A DNA stretch of 17,624 bases from Streptomyces sp. NRRL WC-3742. Lineage in GTDB: Bacteria; Actinomycetota; Actinomycetes; Streptomycetales; Streptomycetaceae. The stretch is taken from positions 1-17,624 of the forward strand of contig NZ_JOCF01000109.1 in NCBI RefSeq assembly GCF_000720635.1. The letters are read 5' to 3'. Shown here piece by piece: positions 2,648 through 17,067 of this stretch. The notes beneath the pieces are model-generated. The model saw only the letters and a program-made list of their open reading frames with translations. It was not told the DNA's origin and made no database searches. Each line of letters opens with the position of its first letter. Within the stretch, counting starts at the first letter, position 1. The position numbers were made by a program, and so were the translations under genes.

Positions 2648-3901
2648 TCAGCCGGCCAGGAACCTGGCTCGCTTGGCTGACTGGCTGCGGACCTCTCCGG
2701 CCTGCCGCGTCGCCGCGTCGCGCCGACGGTCGGCCGACGTCCGGGGCTGGCGGGCCTGGGCGAGGAACGCGGCCATGAACTGGCGGCTGGACTCGTCGTC
2801 GATGCCGAGCTTCTCGTCCAGCTCACGGCGTTGCCGGTCCACGACCGCGTCCGCCGTGCAGTGCCGGCAGCCAGCCGCCTCAAGGCTGGGGTGGGACGGG
2901 CATGGGTCGACCAGCCGACGCGGTGCGGCCTGCACCATCGGTTCGGCCGGGGCACCCGCGTACTGTGCCTTCGCGGCCTCGCCCAGACCAGCCCACGCTG
3001 GCTTCTCGGCCGCCATCCACCGAGCCACCGCGATCAGCCACTCCACCGGCTTGCCCGCCTTCACCAGCGCGGTCGCCGATGCCTGGAACTCCTCCAACGC
3101 ACCCGGCCGGCGGTGCGGACCGACCCCGGCGGCGACGCGGGCCTCCGACCACGCCAGCACGATCTGGCGGACCCCCGACGACAGCCCGTCACCCGGGGCG
3201 GGCTCGGACTCCTCCCGCTGCGTCGGCACGGCCGCAGGCGAAGGTACAGCCTGCCCCTGAGGGGGCTCTTCCTGATTGTCGATCTTCTTCTGCTCCTCGG
3301 ACGTCGCACGCGAGGTGGCCGGAGTCTGAGGGGCGGTAGAGGAAGAAGAGTCATTAGCGGAGTACTTGGAAGATGATCCCTGACTCTCCGAATCCGGGTG
3401 AGCCGAATCCGGGTGAGCCGAATCCTGGAAACCCGGAACCGGGCCCGAATCCGGATTCTCAGGAACCGGAGCCTTCGGGGGCTTCTCACCTGCGGTCTTC
3501 TGGCCGTGGGTGCGTCGCGCGGGTGCCGCCTTCGGAGTGTCCTTCGTGGCTCGCTTACGGTCGTCGGGGTTGGTGCGCTGCTCGGGAGGCACCGGGCGGC
3601 TGTAGACCTCGCAGATCCACTCGTGGGTGCCGTTCTTGTGGTGCATCAGCCGTCGAACGACGTAACCGGCGCGCTCCAGCTCGTACGAGGCCGCGTACAG
3701 GGCATCGCGGCCTTCGAGGTTCTTCGCACCGCTCCGCTTGGCGCGCTTGACCATGTCCGGGATGCTGTCGATCTCGACACCGGGCGGCCGGCGAAGCCAC
3801 CTGGTGAGCAGGCCCAGCGCTCGGCACGACAGGTCGTCGTCCACCGTTAGGTTGTCGAGGGTGGTCCAGGTCGCCGACTCCTCGGCGCGGTACATCCTCA
3901 T
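2648..3901 (-). CDS. Initiator or helicase-loader-like protein with winged-helix-like N-terminus and Cys/His cluster
   Basis: The 417-aa product starts at ATG 3901 behind GAGG (7-base spacing) and overlaps the upstream 61-aa ORF by 4 bases, so it is translationally coupled. Residues about 10-100 read as a compact helical domain ending in a basic, hairpin-like segment (ERAGYVVRRLMHHKNGTHEWICEVYSRP), the pattern of winged-helix domains in plasmid and phage replication proteins. Residues 103-240 are a low-complexity Pro/Ser/Glu linker. Residues 241-315 are helical. C334-x2-H337-x7-C345-x2-C348 could bind zinc. A basic helical tail follows. Lying directly upstream of dnaB, it is most simply the initiator or loader that recruits DnaB to the origin. 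That role is inferred from position and architecture, not from a recognised family. Confidence 0.75.
   Translation of the reverse strand: MRMYRAEESATWTTLDNLTVDDDLSCRALGLLTRWLRRPPGVEIDSIPDMVKRAKRSGAKNLEGRDALYAASYELERAGYVVRRLMHHKNGTHEWICEVYSRPVPPEQRTNPDDRKRATKDTPKAAPARRTHGQKTAGEKPPKAPVPENPDSGPVPGFQDSAHPDSAHPDSESQGSSSKYSANDSSSSTAPQTPATSRATSEEQKKIDNQEEPPQGQAVPSPAAVPTQREESEPAPGDGLSSGVRQIVLAWSEARVAAGVGPHRRPGALEEFQASATALVKAGKPVEWLIAVARWMAAEKPAWAGLGEAAKAQYAGAPAEPMVQAAPRRLVDPCPSHPSLEAAGCRHCTADAVVDRQRRELDEKLGIDDESSRQFMAAFLAQARQPRTSADRRRDAATRQAGEVRSQSAKRARFLAG
3388..3430. repeat. 15-bp tandem repeat inside the initiator-like gene
   Basis: The unit CCGAATCCGGGTGAG occurs twice in a row (3388-3402, 3403-3417), followed by a degraded third copy. 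On the minus strand it encodes a repeated Ser-Ala-His-Pro-Asp unit in the disordered linker. The repeat keeps frame, so it looks like slippage expansion of a tolerant linker, not a DNA signal. Confidence 0.8.
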
Positions 3902-4623: not shown

Positions 4624-5535
4624 TCAGCCTATTCGTCTCCCTGAGTCCTCGGACTGTTCAGGGCCGGTGTGTCGGCTGGACAGGTTGGCCTCCGCGCGAA
4701 GCAGCTCGTCCAGCGCTTGGCCAGCCGATAGCGTGGTGCCCTTGGCGTTGTTCCATCGGCTGAGCGTGGACGCCGCCGAGCGGAGCAGGTCGTCCGGAAG
4801 ACCGGCGGCGGCCATCGTGTCCGCCGCTTCCTCCAGTTCGGGGCCCCAGCGCCAACTCCGGGCAGCGGTTTTGCCGATGTAGCCGGTCTCCGTGAGGTAC
4901 GAGCCAGCCCGTTGACCGGCGACGTCGAGCAGCGCCTGGTCGACACCGTGCTCCCGGGCGAGACCGTAGGACAGCGCGGCCAACACCCTGGAGGTCTTCT
5001 GGTAGACGCTGTAGGCCACCTTCAGCGCGCTGGCCTGCCCGATCTCCTCGCCCAGCACGTGGGTCGACACCGCGCTGCCGGAGAAGAGTTGCTCGACCAC
5101 CCCGACCTCGTTCACCGACCCGGAGAGGTACAGCCGGGACTGCTTCGTACCGACCGGAGGTGAGCCGATCACCGCGCCGTCGACCACCGCGCGGGCCGTC
5201 CCACCGAGCAACTGCGCGATCCGCGCAGCCCGCTGCGGACTGATCGCGTTCGCTTCCACATACAGGCCGGTGAAACCGAGCCCGGCCACGTCGCGCGCGA
5301 CGTCCTCCGCCGTAGCCGGCGGGCACAGGCTGAGCACCACGTCCGCCCGAGCCACCAGCTCGTCCAGAGTGGGTACCGCCGTCAGCCCGAACCGATCCGC
5401 CCTGGCCGCAGTCGCGGTGCTGCGCCCCTGCGGGCACCACAGGACCTGACCGCTGTTCGCGAGGGCGCACCCCGCGACGGCCGCGCCCATACTGCCGGGA
5501 TGCAGGACACCGAGCGTGACCTGTCGATCCGTCAT
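4624..5535 (-). CDS. NAD(P)-dependent 6PGDH-like oxidoreductase (DUF1932-type C-terminus)
   Basis: The 303-aa product starts at ATG 5535 behind GGAGGT, overlapping the upstream gene's stop by 4 bases (ATGA). Residues 5-21 (VTLGVLHPGSMGAAVA) form a beta-hydroxyacid-dehydrogenase Rossmann fingerprint. DVVLSLCPP (65-73) and YVEANAISP (92-100) follow. The helical C-terminal half contains SALKVAYSVYQKTSRVL (169-185), with K172 where this superfamily often has its catalytic lysine. The C-terminus resembles DUF1932 (6PGDH-like C-terminal). The family normally oxidises or reduces beta-hydroxyacids or acts on imines; the substrate here cannot be read from sequence. As the last gene of a three-gene coupled operon, it probably works on the product or substrate of the kinase/phosphatase genes before it. 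Confidence 0.85.
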   Translation of the reverse strand: MTDRQVTLGVLHPGSMGAAVAGCALANSGQVLWCPQGRSTATAARADRFGLTAVPTLDELVARADVVLSLCPPATAEDVARDVAGLGFTGLYVEANAISPQRAARIAQLLGGTARAVVDGAVIGSPPVGTKQSRLYLSGSVNEVGVVEQLFSGSAVSTHVLGEEIGQASALKVAYSVYQKTSRVLAALSYGLAREHGVDQALLDVAGQRAGSYLTETGYIGKTAARSWRWGPELEEAADTMAAAGLPDDLLRSAASTLSRWNNAKGTTLSAGQALDELLRAEANLSSRHTGPEQSEDSGRRIG

Positions 5536-6731
5536 CGGGCACCTCCACGGACGTGGCCCAGGGCGTCCAGGACGTCCAGCGCGATGTAGTCCGGCTCCGC
5601 GCCTCCGGGCCACGTCCGACCGTGGGAGACCCAGACGGTGCGCAGCCCGGCCGCGCGGCCGCCGACTACATCCAGGGCAGCGTTGTCCCCCACCATCCAA
5701 CCGCCCCGCGCGAGGCTGCGCCCCACGCGTGCGGCAGCCGTTTCGAAGATGGACAGATCAGGCTTGCGGGCGCCGGCCTCCTCGGAGATGCACACCCCGT
5801 CGACCAGACCGTCGATGCCACTGGCCTTCAGCTTGGCGCGCTGGATCTCGCTGCCGCCGTTGGTGACGACGACAACCTGCCACCCGTCTGCCCTGATCGC
5901 CTCCAGAGCGTCCGGCACGCCGGGGAAAACCCGGACCGTTGCAGGGAACTCCGCGTTGTAGCGGGCCCACATCCGGTCAGCGGACTCCGGCAGCGCCAGC
6001 TCGGCGCACAGGCCCTCGAAGGTCTGGAGGTCCGCGCGGATCCGTATGGCGTCCAGGATCCGGCGCGCGACATCCGGGCTCAGCCCGTAGGTGGCGCCGT
6101 ACCCGAAGATCCATGCGGTCACCGCGGCGCGGCGGTCGATCAATGTGTCGTCGAAGTCCAGCATCAGCAACCGTCGCTCGCGGGCGCTGAGCGCCTGGCG
6201 GATCCGCTCGGCGGCCTGCTCGGGTGATGCCGTGTCGGTGCGGACAACCAGGTCGAACCGGAAACCGGCATTGGCCTCCAGATCCGCCTGCGTGGCATCC
6301 CAGGCGGCCAGACGCGCAGCGGTGTCCGTGTCCCCCCGGCCCACCGACCGCTCCGCCGTCAACTCCCTCGGGCACCAGAGCAGCACCGTCAGCCAGTCGG
6401 CCGGGTAGCCGTCCAGCACTGCCCGTACCCCGTCGACCTGCCCCAGGTGCATCACCGGTACCCCGGCCTCGAACGCCGCGACCAGCCCAGGTCGGTCCGT
6501 CACGTAGGTGCTGTCGTACCTGCTGTTCTCGTAGACCACCTCCCCCGCCGTGGCGCGCAGCTCGGCGAGGAGCTCCGGTGTTCCCATCCGGTAGCCGGCT
6601 GACCGGCCGGGTCCGACCTTCACCCGAGAGAACAAGCCGAAGGTGGGGTCCAGTGCAGAGAGTGCTCGCGTCACGGTGTCCTTGCCAGAGGCCGGAGGCC
6701 CGTAGATGAGCACTCCGTGCGGGCGGTTCAT
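5532..6731 (-). CDS. Bifunctional P-loop (guanylate-kinase-like) kinase fused to HAD phosphatase
   Basis: The 399-aa product starts at ATG 6731, which overlaps the stop of the HTH-kinase gene (ATGA); an upstream extension of the frame only shadows that gene. Residues 1-182 form a P-loop kinase: Walker A GPPASGKDT (11-19), then FSRVKVG, YRMG and VVYENSRYDSTYVTD (66-79), laid out much like the GMP-binding region of guanylate kinases. Residues 187-399 are a HAD hydrolase: motif I DFDDT (192-196), motif II TN (290-291), motif III KPD (323-325), motif IV GDNAALD (348-354), with a helical cap between I and II. All HAD catalytic residues are present. A kinase and a phosphatase in one chain recall polynucleotide end-healing or cofactor-salvage enzymes, but the kinase resembles nucleotide kinases more than Pnkp. 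The substrate is unknown. Confidence 0.85.
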   Translation of the reverse strand: MNRPHGVLIYGPPASGKDTVTRALSALDPTFGLFSRVKVGPGRSAGYRMGTPELLAELRATAGEVVYENSRYDSTYVTDRPGLVAAFEAGVPVMHLGQVDGVRAVLDGYPADWLTVLLWCPRELTAERSVGRGDTDTAARLAAWDATQADLEANAGFRFDLVVRTDTASPEQAAERIRQALSARERRLLMLDFDDTLIDRRAAVTAWIFGYGATYGLSPDVARRILDAIRIRADLQTFEGLCAELALPESADRMWARYNAEFPATVRVFPGVPDALEAIRADGWQVVVVTNGGSEIQRAKLKASGIDGLVDGVCISEEAGARKPDLSIFETAAARVGRSLARGGWMVGDNAALDVVGGRAAGLRTVWVSHGRTWPGGAEPDYIALDVLDALGHVRGGAR

Positions 6732-7765
6732 GCGCGCACCGCCGCGAGAGCGTGCCGCGCCTGGTCGGCCAGCGAGATTGCCGAGCCCATTCGGTTGTCG
6801 ACCAGCAGGTGCGACACCACCGGGCGCACGTCGATGTCGACCGTTGCCATGTACTCGTCCCACCGGGAGAGCTTCCAGGCGTCGCGCGCCGCGGATCGGA
6901 AGCTGATGTACTCGCGCATCGACTCCGGATCGCACTGGACCCAGATTGGGAAGACATCCACCCCCTGGGCTCGGCACCGGTTGCTGAGCCGGGCCATCCA
7001 CTCCTCGGAGGCCATCTCCGTGATGAACGGGGCGGACAGCACGGTGGAGATCCCGCAGTTGATGTTGGCGTAGGCCGCCTGCATCAGGCAGTCGTACTCG
7101 ACAGCGCGCACCTGCTCGCGGTACAGCGAGGTGTGGCGATCGTTCCGATCCCCACCGAGGGCGACCAGGAGCTGTTCGACGAGCGGTCGGGTGAGCGGAT
7201 CCTTGTCCAGCAACGGCCAGCCGGTCAGTTGGGTGAGGAAGCGGGCGAACTCCGTCTTACCACTGCCGGCGAATCCGCCGACCAGGATGACGACCGGGCG
7301 GTGCGGGTCTCCTCCCGTGTGCCGACGCTTCCAAGCGTCCATGATCCGCCGCTGAAGCCCGTAACTGTCCGCTTCGGAGGATCCCGCCGAGATCTGGAGC
7401 AGCGCCCGTTCGACGGCAAGGACGTGGTTCCCGGTGAGCTTGTCGTCCAACGGCGTCAGCTCAAACCGGCTGTCCTCGCCTGGCAGGGCGCTGCGGAAAC
7501 CCAGCTGGGGTTCGGTGGCCCGGTACAGCAGGCAGTACGCCCGTCGGTAATGCGGGCCCGGGTACACGTCACCCTGCTCGTGCTGGCTGAGCGTCTGCGG
7601 GTGCGCAGCTGGGATCCCCTTCAGGCCGGCCTTCTCTGCGATGTTGCGCAGCCGTTCGCCAGCCTGCTCCAGCGTCAGGCCGTGGGCCTCACGCTGTTCC
7701 CTCAGCATCTCGGGGCGCCACCCGAGCCGGTTCTTCGCCATGTCCCCCGCCTGTGTATTTGCCAT
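6728..7765 (-). CDS. XRE-type HTH regulator fused to a zeta-toxin-like P-loop kinase domain
   Basis: The 345-aa product can start at ATG 7765 or ATG 7741 (behind GGCGGGGG); neither has an ideal ribosome-binding site. Residues about 17-85 form an XRE-like helix-turn-helix (PEMLREQREAHGLTLEQAGERLR, then TLSQHEQGDVYPGPHYRRAYCLLY). After a linker, residues 157-345 form a P-loop kinase: VVILVGGFAGSGKTEF with K170, then LLDKDPL (D187, D189) and a later Arg-rich FRSAARDAWK segment that could form a lid. The order resembles the AAA_33/zeta-toxin kinase group. An antitoxin-type HTH joined to such a kinase is like a fused PezA-PezT pair, but the domain may instead sense a ligand for autoregulation. It heads a three-gene coupled operon and probably controls it through the repeats upstream. 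Confidence 0.78.
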   Translation of the reverse strand: MANTQAGDMAKNRLGWRPEMLREQREAHGLTLEQAGERLRNIAEKAGLKGIPAAHPQTLSQHEQGDVYPGPHYRRAYCLLYRATEPQLGFRSALPGEDSRFELTPLDDKLTGNHVLAVERALLQISAGSSEADSYGLQRRIMDAWKRRHTGGDPHRPVVILVGGFAGSGKTEFARFLTQLTGWPLLDKDPLTRPLVEQLLVALGGDRNDRHTSLYREQVRAVEYDCLMQAAYANINCGISTVLSAPFITEMASEEWMARLSNRCRAQGVDVFPIWVQCDPESMREYISFRSAARDAWKLSRWDEYMATVDIDVRPVVSHLLVDNRMGSAISLADQARHALAAVRA

Positions 7766-10212: not shown

Positions 10213-10421
10213 CCCGTCGGCACCGGCCCCGCTGCCAGCACCACCCCGTCGCCCACCCGGGCCCGCCCCGCCAGCCCCGACCGTGCGGCCGCCCGCAGTG
10301 GCGCCCGCACCGGTGAACCACCCGACACCACCGCGTGCCGCAGCCGGCCTTCCCCAGCCGGCGGCGGCACGGCCCCGCCCCGCGCCTGGCACACCCGTCG
10401 ACTCCCAAAGGGGGGAGCACC

Positions 10422-10649
10422 ATGCACCACCAGCACTTGATCCTCTACTTCTTCGCCGCCGCCACGGCCGTCCCGGCCCTGGTGCTGCTGCTCTGGTCCC
10501 TCAAGCAGCACCGCAGGAAGGCCGACGCCCGGGCCTCGTCCGAGGCCGAGGAGACCGGCGCCGCGCTCGGCCGCTGGAGCGCCCGGAACACCGACCCGGC
10601 CGCGTTCATGGCCGAGCGGATCCGGAAGGCGGCCAGCAGCGATGTCTGA
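10422..10649 (+). CDS. Small single-pass membrane protein (75 aa)
   Basis: Starts at ATG 10422 behind GGGGGAG. Residues about 6-26 (LILYFFAAATAVPALVLLLW) form one strong transmembrane helix. A basic flank (KQHRRKADAR) indicates N-out, C-in topology, with a soluble helical tail of about 45 residues. It overlaps the next gene by 8 bases. Small membrane proteins next to spread genes are typical of Streptomyces plasmids, so a Spd-like accessory role is likely but not shown. The 209 bases before it hold only Pro/Arg-coding shadow frames and no convincing gene. Confidence 0.75.
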   Translation: MHHQHLILYFFAAATAVPALVLLLWSLKQHRRKADARASSEAEETGAALGRWSARNTDPAAFMAERIRKAASSDV

Positions 10650-12063: not shown

Positions 12064-14475
12064 GTGAGCATCGACCTGCGCCTGGAGCCGGCCGAGGAGG
12101 AGATCCTCGAAGGCGAGCTGCTGGACGACGACGACCCGGGCCCGCGTCCGGCCGAGCCGGACCCGGCCGGTCCGCGCCCGTGGTGGCGCCGCCAGCTCGG
12201 GCACATCCCGGCCGGCCTGCGCGTGCTGGCCGCCGAGCGCTCGGCCTGGCTGTTCGTCACCGAGGACCACCTGAGCGACCGGGCGGTGGCCCTGCACATC
12301 CTCAACGACCGCCACCAGGTGTGGGAGCAGGGCCGCAACGCGGAGCACACCGCCCTGGCCGGGCGCGCCGCCCAGGAGATGGCCGCCGCCAAGGCATCGG
12401 GCGCCGCGGCCCAGGCCCAGGGCATCACCCCGGCCGGCCACACCGCGGCCCGCCGCGCCGAACTCGCCGCCCGTACCGCCGCCGCCCAGTGGGAGCAGAA
12501 GGCCGCCGCCGTGCTGGCCCTCACCTACACCGGGCACGCGCCGGTGCTCCCCGGGGAGATCACCCACCACCGGCGGCGCATGTCCCACCGGCGCCGGATC
12601 CGCCTGGCGCTCACCGTGCTGGGCACCTACGGCATCCCCGCCCTGTCCGGCGGCCCGCACACCCTCGCCGTGGAGTGCGCGGCCACCGGCGCGGCAGTGG
12701 CCCTGGCCGCCTGGGGCAAAAGCGTCCTGCCCCGGTGGCGCTCCGGCCGCCGCGCCGACCCCGACCTCGCCTACAAGCTGCCCGACGGCGGCCAGGTGAC
12801 CGCCCCGGCCGGACCGCAATGCGCCGACAACCAGGCGGCGGCCCCGGGCGGGGCCGCCGCCCCCGCCCCCGCAGCGTCGGCGGCGGGGGCCTGGCCGACC
12901 GGCGACGGCCGGCCGTTCCCGATCCACGGTGTCACCGACCCGGTCGCAGCTGCCGAGTGCGTGCGGCGGGCCCTGCTCGCCGAACGGGTGCCGCTCGCCC
13001 ACGTCGGTGAGCCGGTCCGGCACCCGTGGGGCTGGGAGGTGGTGGTGCGGGTGTTCGACGGTACGTCCGGCGACATCGGCGACAAGCTGGGCGGCCTGGA
13101 GACCAAGTTCGACGTCGGCGACGGCGACGTGATCCTCCAGCCCAACCGCAAGCGCACCGCCGAGGCCGTGCTGCGCATCGTCACCGGCGACCTCTTCGGC
13201 GCGATGCAGCCCCCGCCCTACCGGGCGCCGCACTCCGTCGACATCACCGACGCCGGGGTGTTCGGGATGAGCGCGGACGGAACCGACCTCTCGTTCTCCC
13301 TCGCCGAGCTGATGGGCGAGGTGATCGCCCGCTCCGGCGGCGGCAAGAGCACGCTCATCCGGGCGCTGCTCGACTGGACCACCGCCGCCGACAACGCCGT
13401 CACGGTGTTCCTTGACCCGTCCGGCGACGGGCCGGGGAAGTTCTCCGAGGCGGTCAAGCTCACCAGCACGAACCCGATTGAGATCGAGTTCGCGCTGCTC
13501 TCCCTCTACCGGCTCGCCGCCGGCCGCGCCCGCATCCGCCGCAAGCTCGGCATGGGCGACACCTGGCGGTGCACCCGCGAGCACCCGGCGATCATCGTCT
13601 TCGTCGACGAGTTCCCCAAGCTCACCAAGCGCAGCAAGCAGATCATCGCCGAGCTGATGCTGGTGGGCCGCAAGGAAGGCGTGTGGCTGATCTTCGCCGC
13701 GCAGGGCGCCACGAAGGAGCTACTGGGCTCCAACATCGCCCAGCACCCGGCGCTCAAGATCCTCGGCGCCTGCCGGGATGTCGACACCACCGGCGCCCTG
13801 GGCGGCGGCGCGATCGACTGGGGCTTCCTGCCGCACCGGCTCCAGCCCAAGTCCGGCGACAGCCTCAACGACCTCGCCAAGACGTACATCGTCGGCGCTC
13901 CCGGGGTCTCCGAGGACCCGATGCTCCACAAGTGGCACTACATCCCCGACGACGAGGGCGGCCGCCGCGCCGCCGAGCGCCTCGCCGCTGGCCTGGTCGA
14001 CGTCGACCAGGCGTCGATCCACGCGGCCCTCCACGCGCCCAACCCGCCCGGCCTCAAGTTCGCCGACGAGGACGAGTACCTCCACTACGTTCCGTGGCCG
14101 GAGCTGCTGGAGATGTGCGCCGAGGACGACGACGAGTACGGCCCCGACGACGGAGCCGAGGAAGAAGAGGCACCGGTCCCCGAGATCAGCGCGGTCCTCA
14201 TGGAGGCGTTCGACAAGGAGGAGGCCGACGCCCTCACCCTCACCCAGCTCCACCGGCACCTGATCGAGTACGACTCCGAGCGGTGGGACCGCTGGCACCA
14301 CAAGGACGAGCACGGGCTCCTGATGGAGATCGGCCGACACCTCGCCCTCGAGTTCCGCAAGGTCGGCATCAAGCTCTCCACCGAGCGCCTGGACGAGCTC
14401 GACGGCAGTCCCCGAGGCATCCGCCTCGCCTCGCTGCTCGCCGCAGTCAAAGCCGCCAGTGAAGACACAGAGTAG
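12064..14475 (+). CDS. TraB/FtsK-SpoIIIE-type conjugal DNA translocase
   Basis: In actinobacterial plasmids this ATPase alone pumps double-stranded DNA between cells, after recognising repeats at the clt locus. The 803-aa product starts at GTG 12064 (GAAGAGGGG upstream). N-terminal acidic motif EEEILEGELLDDDD (11-24) is followed by a helical Ala-rich region. Two possible membrane helices lie at about 182-195 and 200-220. The motor domain has Walker A ARSGGGKST (422-430, K428) and Walker B IIVFVDE (510-516), then KRSKQIIAELMLVGRKEGVWLIFAAQGATKE with a Q-rich switch typical of FtsK-like motors. An acidic spacer (about 685-703) precedes a C-terminal helical domain (706-803) in the place of the DNA-recognition winged helix. 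Overall identity to known TraB proteins cannot be judged here, so no symbol is assigned. Confidence 0.9.
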   Translation: MSIDLRLEPAEEEILEGELLDDDDPGPRPAEPDPAGPRPWWRRQLGHIPAGLRVLAAERSAWLFVTEDHLSDRAVALHILNDRHQVWEQGRNAEHTALAGRAAQEMAAAKASGAAAQAQGITPAGHTAARRAELAARTAAAQWEQKAAAVLALTYTGHAPVLPGEITHHRRRMSHRRRIRLALTVLGTYGIPALSGGPHTLAVECAATGAAVALAAWGKSVLPRWRSGRRADPDLAYKLPDGGQVTAPAGPQCADNQAAAPGGAAAPAPAASAAGAWPTGDGRPFPIHGVTDPVAAAECVRRALLAERVPLAHVGEPVRHPWGWEVVVRVFDGTSGDIGDKLGGLETKFDVGDGDVILQPNRKRTAEAVLRIVTGDLFGAMQPPPYRAPHSVDITDAGVFGMSADGTDLSFSLAELMGEVIARSGGGKSTLIRALLDWTTAADNAVTVFLDPSGDGPGKFSEAVKLTSTNPIEIEFALLSLYRLAAGRARIRRKLGMGDTWRCTREHPAIIVFVDEFPKLTKRSKQIIAELMLVGRKEGVWLIFAAQGATKELLGSNIAQHPALKILGACRDVDTTGALGGGAIDWGFLPHRLQPKSGDSLNDLAKTYIVGAPGVSEDPMLHKWHYIPDDEGGRRAAERLAAGLVDVDQASIHAALHAPNPPGLKFADEDEYLHYVPWPELLEMCAEDDDEYGPDDGAEEEEAPVPEISAVLMEAFDKEEADALTLTQLHRHLIEYDSERWDRWHHKDEHGLLMEIGRHLALEFRKVGIKLSTERLDELDGSPRGIRLASLLAAVKAASEDTE

Positions 14476-14483
14476 CCGTAGCT

Positions 14484-14580
14484 GATCACTGCGGGATCGG
14501 TCCGTCATCGGATCCCGATCAGCGGCGGATCGGCGGGGCATCGGCTGCCCCGCCGATCGTCCGCTGATCGTCCGCCGATC
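14484..14580. repeat. Array of 11-bp repeats headed by GATC, candidate clt/TRS locus
   Basis: GATC or CATC starts fall at exact 11-bp steps: 14484, 14495, 14506 (CATC), 14517, 14528 and 14539 (CATC). After a 16-bp step come 14555, 14566 and 14577. Later units read GATCGTCCGCT and GATCGTCCGCC. More GATCs lie at 14511, 14609, 14618 and 14623. The array starts 9 bases after the traB stop, where clt repeats lie in plasmids such as pSVH1. Eleven bp is one helical turn, so bound subunits would sit on one face. Confidence 0.75.
14517..14569. repeat. 53-nt inverted repeat within the GATC array
   Basis: Arms of 24 nt (14517-14540 and 14546-14569) match at 22 of 24 positions around a 5-nt loop, TCGGC. 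The GATC at 14517 pairs with that at 14566, and 14528 with 14555, so the iterons face each other. It could also serve as a transcription terminator, but no U-tract follows. Confidence 0.75.
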
Positions 14581-14638
14581 ACAAAACCGATTCTGACCTG
14601 GGGAAACCGATCCAGCCGATCAGATCCCCCGCACCCTG

Positions 14639-14675
14639 GGAAACGGCCCCGACACCCCGGATCGGGGCCGTTTCC
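14639..14675 (+). terminator. Hairpin terminator after traB
   Basis: GGAAACGGCCCCG (14639-14651) and CGGGGCCGTTTCC (14663-14675) form a perfect 13-bp stem with an 11-nt loop. The T-run lies within the 3' arm, a common form of Streptomyces terminator. It would end the traB transcript, so the next gene needs its own promoter or read-through. Confidence 0.75.
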
Positions 14676-14763: not shown

Positions 14764-17067
14764 ATGACCCCGGCCCGCACCACGAGCCGTCGCACCCGAA
14801 CCCCCGCCAAGAAGACGCCCGTCAAGCCCCCCGCGGCCCGCCCGGCCGCCCCGATCGCCGTCCAGCCAGACCCCCTTGCCGAGCTCCCCGCGACCTTCAC
14901 CGTCCGGTCGGCCGCCGACCGCGCGGCCGACGTCCTGGCCCTCGCGGAGGACCAGGCGCTCGCCGTCCTGGAGCGGGCCGCCGAGCAGTCCGGCCGCGAC
15001 CGGGAGACCGCCGCGCAGTGGGCGGCCGAGGCCGAGCAGCTGCGCGCCGACGCCGCCGCCGAGGCCGAGACCGTCACGCAGCGTGCCGACCGGGCGGTCC
15101 GGCAGATCCTCGACCTGGCCAACGACCAGGCCGACCTGATCCTCCAGTACGCCCGGGAGCAGCGGGAGGAAGCCGGCGCCGACGCCCGCGCGGCGGCCGA
15201 CCGGCTGCTGGAGGAGGCCACCGAGCGGGCTGCGTCGCTGCTGGCCGATGCCGAGCAGCGCGCCGCGGCCGTCCGCGCCCAGGCCGAGGAAGAGGCGGCT
15301 CGGATCGTCTCCGCGGCCGAGGAGCGGGCGCAGGCGGTGGCGGCCGGCATCACCGCCACCGCCGAGGAGCGGGCCGCCGAGCTCCTCGCCGAGGCCGAGG
15401 GGGAAATCACCACGGTGCGGCGCCGGGCCGACGCCGCCCTCGCCGATGTCCACGACCAGGTCGCTGGCGCCACGCTGGCGCTGGAGCGTACCCGGGCCCG
15501 GATCGCCGAGGACCGCGCCCGGGCCGAGCAGGACCTGACCGGCGCGCGGGAGCTCGCCGCCACCGTCCAGTGCGACGCCGCCGCGGCCGCCGACCGGACC
15601 CTGACCGAGGCCGCCGCTGCTGCCGAGACGATCCGCACCCGGGCCGCCGCCACCGCCCGCGACATCCTCACCACCGCCGAGACGCAGGCCGAGGAACTGC
15701 GCGCCGACGCCGAGGAGCGGGCCGCCCGCCTCACCGAGGCCGCCCTCGCCGACGCGGACACCGCCCGGGAGGAGGCCGCCACCGCCGTCGACCAGCTGCA
15801 TACCGAGGCCGAGGCCGAGGCGGCGGAGCTCCGGGAGGAGGCCGGGCGCCAGGCCGCCGAGCTCCGGGAGGAGGCCGGGCGGCAGGCCGCCGAGCTGCGC
15901 CGGCGCGGGCAGGCCGACGCCCAGGAGCTCCAGGCCGAGGCGCGGCAGCAGATCGAGCAGGCCCGGCAGTCGGTCGCCGAGCAGCTGCGCCAGGCCAGCT
16001 CGGCCCGTGGCAAGGCGGAGGCCGACGGCCAGCGCCTGCGCGCCGCCGCCCGGCGGGACGCCGATCAGGTCACCGCGGACGCCCTCGCCGAGCTTGCCGA
16101 GACGCAGGAGCAGCTGGCCGCGCTGCGCGCCGAGCAGGCCGAGCTGGAGGCGCGGCGGGCCCAGAAGGAGCAGCGGCGGTGGCGCCGGACGCTGCGCCGG
16201 GCGGTGGCGAACCGGGTTCACCTGGTGCCGTTCCTGCTGACCCGCACGGTGCTCGGGGCCGGCCTGGCGTACACCTCCTACAAGGAGCACCAGCTGGCGG
16301 TCACCGCCGGGATGAACTCCGCGCTGGCGTGGCTGCTGGCGGTGTGTGTGGACGGGTGGGTCGTCGCCGCGACCCGCAGCAAGCTCAAGACGGAGACGCG
16401 GATCGCGCTCGCGGTGATGATGCTGTGCCAGATCGCCGCGATCCTGACCGACCTGCACCTGCTCGGCGTCGCCCAGGACGCTCACGGAGCGTGGAGGATC
16501 CAGTGGCAGCTGGCGATCCCGCTCGCCACGGTCGTCCCGATCGCCATCTGGCGCGTGCACGAGATCATCGACCACGCCAAGGGCGCTCACGGCGAGCACG
16601 GCGTGGGCGCTCCGTCCGCCGACGCGCCCACCGGCACCGGCGGCGGCGCTCACGAGGACCCCACCCCGCGCCCGCCGTACGGCGGACAGCCGCTGCCCGC
16701 CGCCCACGGCGTCCTGCTCCCCGCGCAGAGCGTCTACATCGAGCGCTCACATGAGCGCGAGATCACCGCAGGTGGGGGGACGAATGGCGCTCACCGCGCG
16801 CTGCCGGGCGCTCACCTGCAGACCGCGAACGCTCACCCGCCGGTTGCCCTGACCGGGGCCGCGCTCACCTACGCCCGGCGGGCGACCGTCCGTCAGCTCT
16901 ACACCGCTCTCGACCGTCGCCCGCTCGTCTCCGAGATCCACGCCGCGCTCACCGCCAAGGGTCTGCTCAACGGCGACGAGAAGACGACGCGCTCGACCTG
17001 CCAGCGCGTGCGCACCGATGTGGAGGGCGCCGAGCCGGCACTCAAGCCCGCCGTTCGCTCTGCGTAA
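14764..17067 (+). CDS. Long coiled-coil / multi-pass membrane / HTH protein, Spd-like
   Basis: The 767-aa product starts at ATG 14764 behind AGGAG. The N-terminus is basic and Pro-rich (1-38). Residues about 45-470 are an almost unbroken Ala/Glu/Arg coiled coil, some 60 nm if fully extended. A basic collar (RRWRRTLRR, about 472-480) leads into four hydrophobic segments (about 487-505, 519-537, 546-569, 583-600), the arrangement of the DUF2637/SpdB-like membrane domain. A Gly/Pro/His-rich linker with PPYGGQ follows. A helical region at about 704-760 (ATVRQLYTALDRRPLVSEIH onward) resembles a DNA-binding HTH. It may join septal membrane, TraB and plasmid DNA during spread. The coiled coil is far longer than in Spd proteins I know. 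The 3' third carries the CGCTCAC array. Confidence 0.8.
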   Translation: MTPARTTSRRTRTPAKKTPVKPPAARPAAPIAVQPDPLAELPATFTVRSAADRAADVLALAEDQALAVLERAAEQSGRDRETAAQWAAEAEQLRADAAAEAETVTQRADRAVRQILDLANDQADLILQYAREQREEAGADARAAADRLLEEATERAASLLADAEQRAAAVRAQAEEEAARIVSAAEERAQAVAAGITATAEERAAELLAEAEGEITTVRRRADAALADVHDQVAGATLALERTRARIAEDRARAEQDLTGARELAATVQCDAAAAADRTLTEAAAAAETIRTRAAATARDILTTAETQAEELRADAEERAARLTEAALADADTAREEAATAVDQLHTEAEAEAAELREEAGRQAAELREEAGRQAAELRRRGQADAQELQAEARQQIEQARQSVAEQLRQASSARGKAEADGQRLRAAARRDADQVTADALAELAETQEQLAALRAEQAELEARRAQKEQRRWRRTLRRAVANRVHLVPFLLTRTVLGAGLAYTSYKEHQLAVTAGMNSALAWLLAVCVDGWVVAATRSKLKTETRIALAVMMLCQIAAILTDLHLLGVAQDAHGAWRIQWQLAIPLATVVPIAIWRVHEIIDHAKGAHGEHGVGAPSADAPTGTGGGAHEDPTPRPPYGGQPLPAAHGVLLPAQSVYIERSHEREITAGGGTNGAHRALPGAHLQTANAHPPVALTGAALTYARRATVRQLYTALDRRPLVSEIHAALTAKGLLNGDEKTTRSTCQRVRTDVEGAEPALKPAVRSA
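15826..15891 (+). repeat. 33-bp tandem duplication in the coiled coil
   Basis: Two adjacent 33-bp units (15826-15858, 15859-15891) differ at one base and encode ELREEAGRQAA twice. The 11-residue unit equals a coiled-coil hendecad, so the duplication preserves the helix register. It is probably a recent event. Confidence 0.85.
16479..16952. repeat. Nine CGCTCAC motifs inside the 3' third of the coiled-coil gene
   Basis: CGCTCAC starts at 16479, 16584, 16647, 16744, 16788, 16809, 16830, 16862 and 16946, all on the plus strand. Steps are 105, 63, 97, 44, 21, 21, 32 and 84 bp, close to whole multiples of 10.5 (10, 6, 9.2, 4.2, 2, 2, 3, 8 turns). Codon phases differ: Ala-His (six copies), Arg-Ser-His (one) and Ala-Leu-Thr (two). 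Keeping the motif uses GCT and TCA, codons rare in this genome. It is therefore probably a DNA signal, not a protein repeat. Confidence 0.8.

Follow-up and report, generated by a model that had tools for sequence, protein, structure and literature searches.

A heptamer array inside the spd gene of a probable Streptomyces conjugative plasmid follows the helix-turn-helix end of its own protein, not TraB

Gene layout

The window analyzed here is a contig of 17,624 nucleotides (NZ_JOCF01000109.1) from Streptomyces sp. NRRL WC-3742, one of 233 contigs in a genome of 8.74 Mb. Two neighboring genes on its plus strand are of interest: a traB-like gene (12064..14475) and, beside it, a gene for a SpdB2/DUF2637-like protein of 767 aa (14764..17067), referred to below as the spd gene. 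Two repeat arrays accompany them. Array 1 (14476..14640) is non-coding, lies 3′ of traB and consists of CCGATC/GATCGG and CTGATC repeats in both orientations. Array 2 (16479..16952, plus strand) consists of nine copies of the heptamer CGCTCAC, proposed below to be docking sites, and lies within the coding sequence of the spd gene. This membrane-protein gene with its array is probably part of a conjugative plasmid. Two candidate readers of array 2 are encoded side by side: the helix-turn-helix (HTH) of the array's own gene and the C-terminal domain of TraB.

The traB-like product (803 aa) resembles FtsK/SpoIIIE-like double-stranded DNA (dsDNA) translocases. Residues 283-650 matched the PHROG FtsK/SpoIIIE-like family (E=1.9e-65); no curated Pfam or NCBIfam cut-off was passed, and a PDB sequence search with the protein gave no match at E 0.01. 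The C-terminal domain (14173..14472, plus strand), a candidate reader of array 1, is predicted to adopt a winged-helix-like fold. Its AlphaFold model had a pLDDT (predicted local distance difference test score) of 89.6, and the top Foldseek rows were mainly forkhead/winged-helix domains, with a best E of only 0.059.

As judged from the translation, the parts of the 767-aa protein are an extended coiled coil rich in Ala and Glu, a membrane region, a linker and a C-terminal HTH-like end. The coiled coil gave weak matches to DivIVA/Scy/FliH, far under the cut-offs, and no DUF2637 match was detected for the protein (Pfam at E 0.1; NCBIfam at E 0.01). The membrane-spanning region (16108..16572, plus strand), which served as search profile A1, was recognized from hydrophobic segments read by eye in the alignment. 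The predicted three-helix HTH, the proposed reader of array 2, is encoded at 16855..17031 on the plus strand.

The CGCTCAC array

Array 2 is present as a sequence-only reading of the window had described it: nine same-strand copies in 474 bp (plus-strand starts at 16479, 16584, 16647, 16744, 16788, 16809, 16830, 16862, and 16946), with steps of exactly 105, 63, 97, 44, 21, 21, 32, and 84 bp. All three codon phases are used, by six, two and one copies. The remaining window contains nine further CGCTCAC, both strands summed. That reading had put the background at about one copy per 8 kb per strand; the genome holds 2431 copies in 8.74 Mb, or about one per 7.2 kb per strand. In codon-preserving shuffles of the spd gene (n=2000, residues fixed) the heptamer occurred 0.76 times on average and at most four times, and protein repetition was rejected as its cause on this ground. 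Because such shuffles fail to yield arrays of this kind, array 2 is a DNA-level feature, and it is maintained at that level. The codon GCT is otherwise avoided, as had been proposed: it encodes alanine in 6 of 7 Ala-His pairs versus 7 of 182 other Ala codons.

The inverted repeat GCGCTCA-CA-TGAGCGC around one CGCTCAC copy was confirmed at 16743..16758. Among relatives, cited here by locus number, it is identical in L028, L029, and L032, one base off in L031, and more altered in L027 and L030. A protein of Streptomyces sp. CBMA156 (L006, on the same contig as L027) is 79% identical to that of the window, and its gene carries eight CGCTCAC with identical spacing.

The further proposal that the copies lie on one face of the DNA is only partly supported. 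It failed at a cumulative 10.5 bp per turn (R=0.34, p=0.35) and stood at a period of 10.65 (R=0.89), a fit equaled by 0.4% of random layouts in a period scan from 10.0 to 11.2. With eight of the nine window copies used, 10.69 fitted better than 10.5. Frame-preserving p-values at 10.5 were 0.003-0.018 in L036, L037, L039, L057, L060, and L064, and at least 0.11 in the other 14 arrays tested (at least 0.7 in L040, L047, and L048). With results thus mixed across arrays, helical phasing was rejected as a general rule.

Relatives and their own heptamers

Of 70 genomes in the genus, 16 (the source genome counted) had relatives in the protein search, and the membrane-region profile gave matches in 28 of 150 family genomes and 10 of 99 order genomes. 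Named plasmids came from searches with window DNA (five plasmids taken of 14 records matched) and window TraB (eight taken of 42). The plasmid search with the window protein gave one weak match, and that with two stretches of the GTACCCG group gave short matches only.

Many relatives carry an array in the same gene position, but the heptamer is specific to the protein group. CGCTCAC arrays were found in L027-L032; L016, on the contig that carries the fragment L034, has four copies. Other groups carry TGCAACG (nine copies, L033), TGAGACC (10-11 copies, some overlapping the stop codon; L036, L037, and L039), TGARANC variants (10-11 copies, with TGAGACC itself absent; L035 and L038), CGAACCG and its complement (L041 and L042), CCGTACG (L047 and L048), GTACCCG/CGTACCC (L056, L057, L060, L061, and L064), CGGAACC (L053 and L067), CGGGAAG/CGCTTCC (complement GGAAGCG; L050 and L076), or GCGGTAA (L075). 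The source genome itself has a second traB/spd element (L040, contig C37), in which the HTH differs and the spd gene contains a CGGTAAC repeat; this repeat is not clearly significant when codons are shuffled (two tests, p=0.017 and 0.067).

Measured against codon shuffles by a strongest-word statistic, p<0.01 was reached at 33 of the 45 genome loci tested (L055, L063, and L069 excluded) and in 9 of the 12 plasmid genes. Among the first loci, leaving aside L034 (too short) and L037 (gene absent from the set of open reading frames, ORFs), 14 of 15 Spd genes scored above all 57 other ORFs, whose maximum was 3.8. These controls were selected by length and by GC content at third codon positions (GC3), and 3 of the 57 had p<0.01. 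L030 dropped to 3.8 when the test was repeated with other shuffles.

HTHs of the A type also occur apart from a membrane region. L041 (4784-5314) and L042 (4573-5103; both on the spd strand) encode 176-aa proteins with such an HTH and without a Spd-like membrane region, downstream of an spd gene whose own HTH and motif are of another kind. No CGCTCAC array was found near the soluble relative in L041.

The heptamer follows the HTH

Across independent elements, the array motif follows the HTH and not TraB. With 16 loci (120 pairs) assigned to motif groups by hand, L059 being excluded as its traB runs off the locus, HTH similarity separated same-motif from different-motif pairs with an area under the curve (AUC) of 1.000, and similarity of the TraB tails with one of 0.658. 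Motif similarity was also scored blindly, from codon-corrected 7-mer profiles of the linker with the HTH codons omitted. These profiles correlated with HTH similarity at r=0.77 over 53 loci; relative to the 42-locus comparison described next, the later array 2 correlation added L041, L042, and nine plasmid genes, and L086, L087, and L089 were not added. In Mantel tests over 42 loci, the correlation with the HTH was 0.81, and 0.66 given the membrane region; that with the membrane region given the HTH was 0.00. This set was without L069 (same gene as L029), L055 (2-residue tail), L063 (end apparently out of frame), and L034, L041, and L042 (missed by the membrane profile), and its TraB part also without L058 and L059. 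For 26 loci with both genes, motif versus HTH given TraB gave r=0.88; motif versus TraB tail given the HTH gave a partial r of -0.07 (p=0.86).

Individual elements illustrate the same pattern. L031 and L032 carry CGCTCAC as in the window, but their TraB tails are unrelated. The TraB tail of L042 is like those of L027 and L028 (normalized score 0.59-0.64), yet its motif is CGAACCG; likewise the TraB tails of L064 and L053 are similar (0.60), yet their motifs are GTACCCG and CGGAACC, respectively. Plasmids L083, L084, and L090 share a common HTH and a CGGACCG array, and have three kinds of TraB tail.

Repeats 3′ of traB

Array 1 showed the opposite dependence. Repeats were compared at 25 of 28 loci, since L056, L057, and L060 had less than 150 bp past traB, and 23 of these had a usable HTH. 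Over the 23 loci, array 1 correlated with the TraB tail given the HTH (r=0.56) and not with the HTH given TraB (-0.06). Arrays 2 and 1, with the HTH and TraB respectively, thus form a double dissociation.

L030 and L083, whose TraB tails are moderately window-like (0.42 and 0.34), have CCGATC-type repeats as in the window. L027, L028, L042, and L084 share another TraB tail (0.59-0.68 among listed pairs) and have ACAGATC/GCGGATC/ACGGATC-type repeats. L049 and L052 (TraB tails 0.30) have AGGGAGGC in common, and the repeat 3′ of traB in L090 is GGACAACCA. No clear repeats were seen 3′ of traB in L051, L062, L063, L085, and L086.

The clt of pWTY27 is described as 16 bp inside traA plus the adjacent 159 bp (PMC3583192), so that array 1 lies where a clt might be expected. 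Since array 1 also follows TraB, it is a better clt candidate than array 2, and it is probably the true clt of the window element.

Array 1 also includes a TTCTGACCTG(G/C)GGAAACC box that is common to L030 and partly to L027. Part of it is 78% identical to an array at about 6000-6140 of L077, a 21-kb linear plasmid of Kitasatospora purpeofusca (NZ_CP108564.1), in which no TraB match was found within the 11.8 kb examined.

Proposed docking by the Spd protein

Array 2 is best read as a self-encoded docking array of a membrane-anchored spread or maintenance protein, and not as a TraB loading site. The suggestion that the protein might bind its own gene, as a spread-protein site, accords with this co-variation, which makes the HTH-like end of the protein the leading candidate for the reader. 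We consider it likely that the sites in the 3′ coding part of the gene are read by the HTH of the same protein, that the membrane region acts as a tether, and that TraB loads elsewhere. The C-terminal HTH would bind the CGCTCAC sites, and several HTH tails on a membrane-bound oligomer could grip the array and so hold the plasmid at the membrane, for instance at the cross-walls of hyphae. The tethered plasmid may then be passed to TraB for spread within the mycelium, or held for inheritance. TraB would be loaded separately, at the non-coding array just 3′ of its gene.

Several points weigh against this proposal. The fold of the HTH is a prediction: Foldseek returned no match to the HTH model with E under 2, and PDB sequences searched with the HTH profile yielded none under E 0.4. 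The DNA binding reported for SpdB2 of pSVH1 is non-specific (PMC4170104). A p<0.01 in the strongest-word statistic was missed by 12 of the 45 genome loci (L040, L045, L051, L054, L058, L062, L065, L066, and L068, as well as L030 at p=0.017, L057 at p=0.025, and the 143-aa fragment L034) and by plasmid genes L086, L087, and L089. Motif profiles are shared by 68 of 93 like-HTH pairs and not by the other 25, and to some degree by 23 of 686 unlike-HTH pairs. Without correction for the HTH, a weak correlation of motif with TraB tail is present over the 26 loci with both genes (r=0.20, p=0.006). The array and the HTH are parts of one gene and are inherited together, so that common ancestry by itself might account for their association.

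Three results argue against such hitchhiking as the whole story, without removing it. Firstly, about ten sites change together from TGAGACC to TGARANC variants where membrane regions are 67-76% identical (two pairs compared), and the recognition helix changes alongside (GKSRATA[GA]RR versus GKSQATAWRR). Secondly, some motifs are used in both orientations, and therefore encode different residues. Such are, each with related HTHs, CGGAACC in L053 (+6/-3) and L067 (+7/-5) and GCTTCCC in L050 (+3/-2) and L076 (+2/-5); in the latter pair similarity is 0.30 for the HTH and 0.26 for the membrane region. Thirdly, four linear plasmids found with window DNA (L078-L081, from S. goshikiensis, Streptomyces sp. 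NBC_01546, S. globosus, and S. vietnamensis pSVL1) carry CGCTCAC (+8-10/-2-5), some copies lying beyond the stop codon. In the set, all the HTHs nearest to theirs are from the A group (scores of 0.32-0.36 for the closest). Their membrane domain differs, the profile giving E=0.0011 for L078 and not reaching the other three Spd genes within E 10. The DNA match of L078, which was split in two, may have extended into the array or the HTH; matches in the other three were confined to the coiled-coil part ahead of the membrane region.

Alternative explanations

If array 2 served autoregulation, the HTH bound to it would repress the gene or operon that encodes it, or obstruct its transcription, and this would count against docking as its purpose. 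The HTH is self-encoded and its sites are self-embedded, and the palindromes that SpdA2 is reported to bind lie within its gene or close to it (PMC4170104). From general knowledge, however, a repressor would be poorly placed about 1.7-2.2 kb 3′ of the start codon, and it would be unusual for one to be anchored in the membrane. We regard autoregulation as unlikely.

Array 2 had also been proposed to be a loading site for a dsDNA translocase of the clt or TRS (TraB recognition sequence) type, which would be read by the TraB C-terminal winged helix. An FtsK/SpoIIIE-like gene is next door, and nine heptamers in 474 bp are the clustered short repeats looked for in such a site. According to the published descriptions, clt sites are repeat arrays, that of pWTY27 enters traA by 16 bp (PMC3583192), and TraB of pSVH1 reads repeated 8-bp motifs (PMC3583192, PMC12857230). 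The weak uncorrected correlation of motif with TraB tail points the same way. This link is gone, however, once the HTH is taken into account; like motifs occur with unlike TraB tails, and the reverse; and it is array 1 that follows TraB. Moreover, no TraB match was found in L033, L035-L039, L043, L044, and L046-L048 (8.7-10 kb examined). This absence is local only: further along the L035 plasmid, at a distance of about 7 kb, an ORF weakly resembles FtsK (E=8e-7; L082, with 49 of 122 kb of the plasmid examined). On co-variation TraB was rejected as reader of the heptamer, and the proposal is improbable.

That selection acts on Ala-His (or Glu-Thr, Gly-Asn) repeats in the linker, with the heptamer as a by-product, is very improbable: one codon phase does dominate (6 of 9 copies in the window, 7 of 7 in L040), but codon-preserving shuffles do not reproduce the arrays (that of L040 not being clearly significant there), three phases are used in the window and both orientations in other groups, and copies lie over the stop codon (L036, L037, and L039) or beyond it (L078-L081).

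Comparison with known systems

The closest published parallel that we found is SpdA2 with its sps palindromes, in pIJ101 and relatives. There, a spread or stability gene carries repeated sites within its coding sequence or immediately ahead of it, and the gene product binds them, as is proposed for the window; binding of SpdA2 to sps by electrophoretic mobility shift assay is reported (PMC4170104). In contrast to the group-specific 7-bp motifs described here, sps is a highly conserved 12-bp palindrome, CGTCACGTGACG, of which the window contained no match with up to two mismatches allowed. SpdA proteins have 117-163 aa, whereas the window gene encodes a large membrane protein.

A half of the sps palindrome word, CGTCACG, occurs eleven times (shuffle maximum eight) in a gene upstream of a traB in L087 (1713-3002; NZ_CP108702.1). 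This was not significant by the strongest-word statistic, and the gene was picked by position and may not be an Spd gene.

SpdB2 of the pSVH1 type and DUF2637 proteins are membrane proteins encoded near traB, and the window protein, with its hydrophobic segments and its gene beside the FtsK-like one, may be of the same nature; SpdB2 is linked to intramycelial spread, and four related plasmid proteins of our set are annotated DUF2637. The SpdB2 of pSVH1 is described as an integral membrane protein that oligomerizes, binds dsDNA and interacts with TraB (PMC4170104), which speaks for the docking proposal. The window protein differs in its predicted HTH and group-specific heptamer array, which point to sequence-specific self-recognition. 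TraB with clt offers another likeness, in that short repeats are the proposed means of loading a DNA-handling protein that the plasmid encodes, and clt repeat sequences are reported to vary between plasmids (PMC3583192). However, clt is read by TraB, whereas array 2 follows the Spd HTH and it is a separate non-coding array that follows TraB. The parS/ParB centromeres offer a possible likeness: there, multi-copy sites are bound by an HTH protein of the same element, and here a predicted HTH co-varies with its array. The reader proposed for array 2 would, however, be membrane-anchored, with its sites inside its own coding sequence. No account of heptamer arrays inside spdB2/DUF2637 genes was found in the literature covered, which takes in the central papers on Streptomyces conjugation incompletely, so that prior notice is possible.

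Other features

No ParA-like domain was detected in the ten ORFs of the window against Pfam; the 17.6-kb contig may hold an incomplete element. On the minus strand (5532-7765), an overlapping ORF pair encodes a HAD phosphatase-like protein and an HTH + AAA_33 protein. Four copies of CCGAATCC lie within about 65 bp (3388-3452), in a single codon phase, inside a minus-strand ORF (2648-3901). In L027, five TTAACGG in about 140 bp (10286-10424) are iteron-like.

Implications

The role of Spd proteins in plasmid spreading in Streptomyces is a long-standing question, and whether a TraB/Spd complex forms is said to await further study (PMC12857230). In our judgement the chances are about even that widespread actinobacterial conjugative elements possess a membrane-anchored, centromere-like system in which the anchor gene holds its own sequence-specific docking array, and in which array and HTH evolve as an exchangeable unit of specificity (about ten motif groups in our set), alongside TraB/clt and independently of it. 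Binding sites would then be kept within a coding sequence through codon choice. For the matched pairs of HTH and heptamer, each group predicts the DNA that its protein should and should not bind. Two arrays with two readers, if true, would separate TraB loading at clt from membrane docking; clt sites would become findable by computation, and the docking proteins would offer a natural series of HTH specificities.

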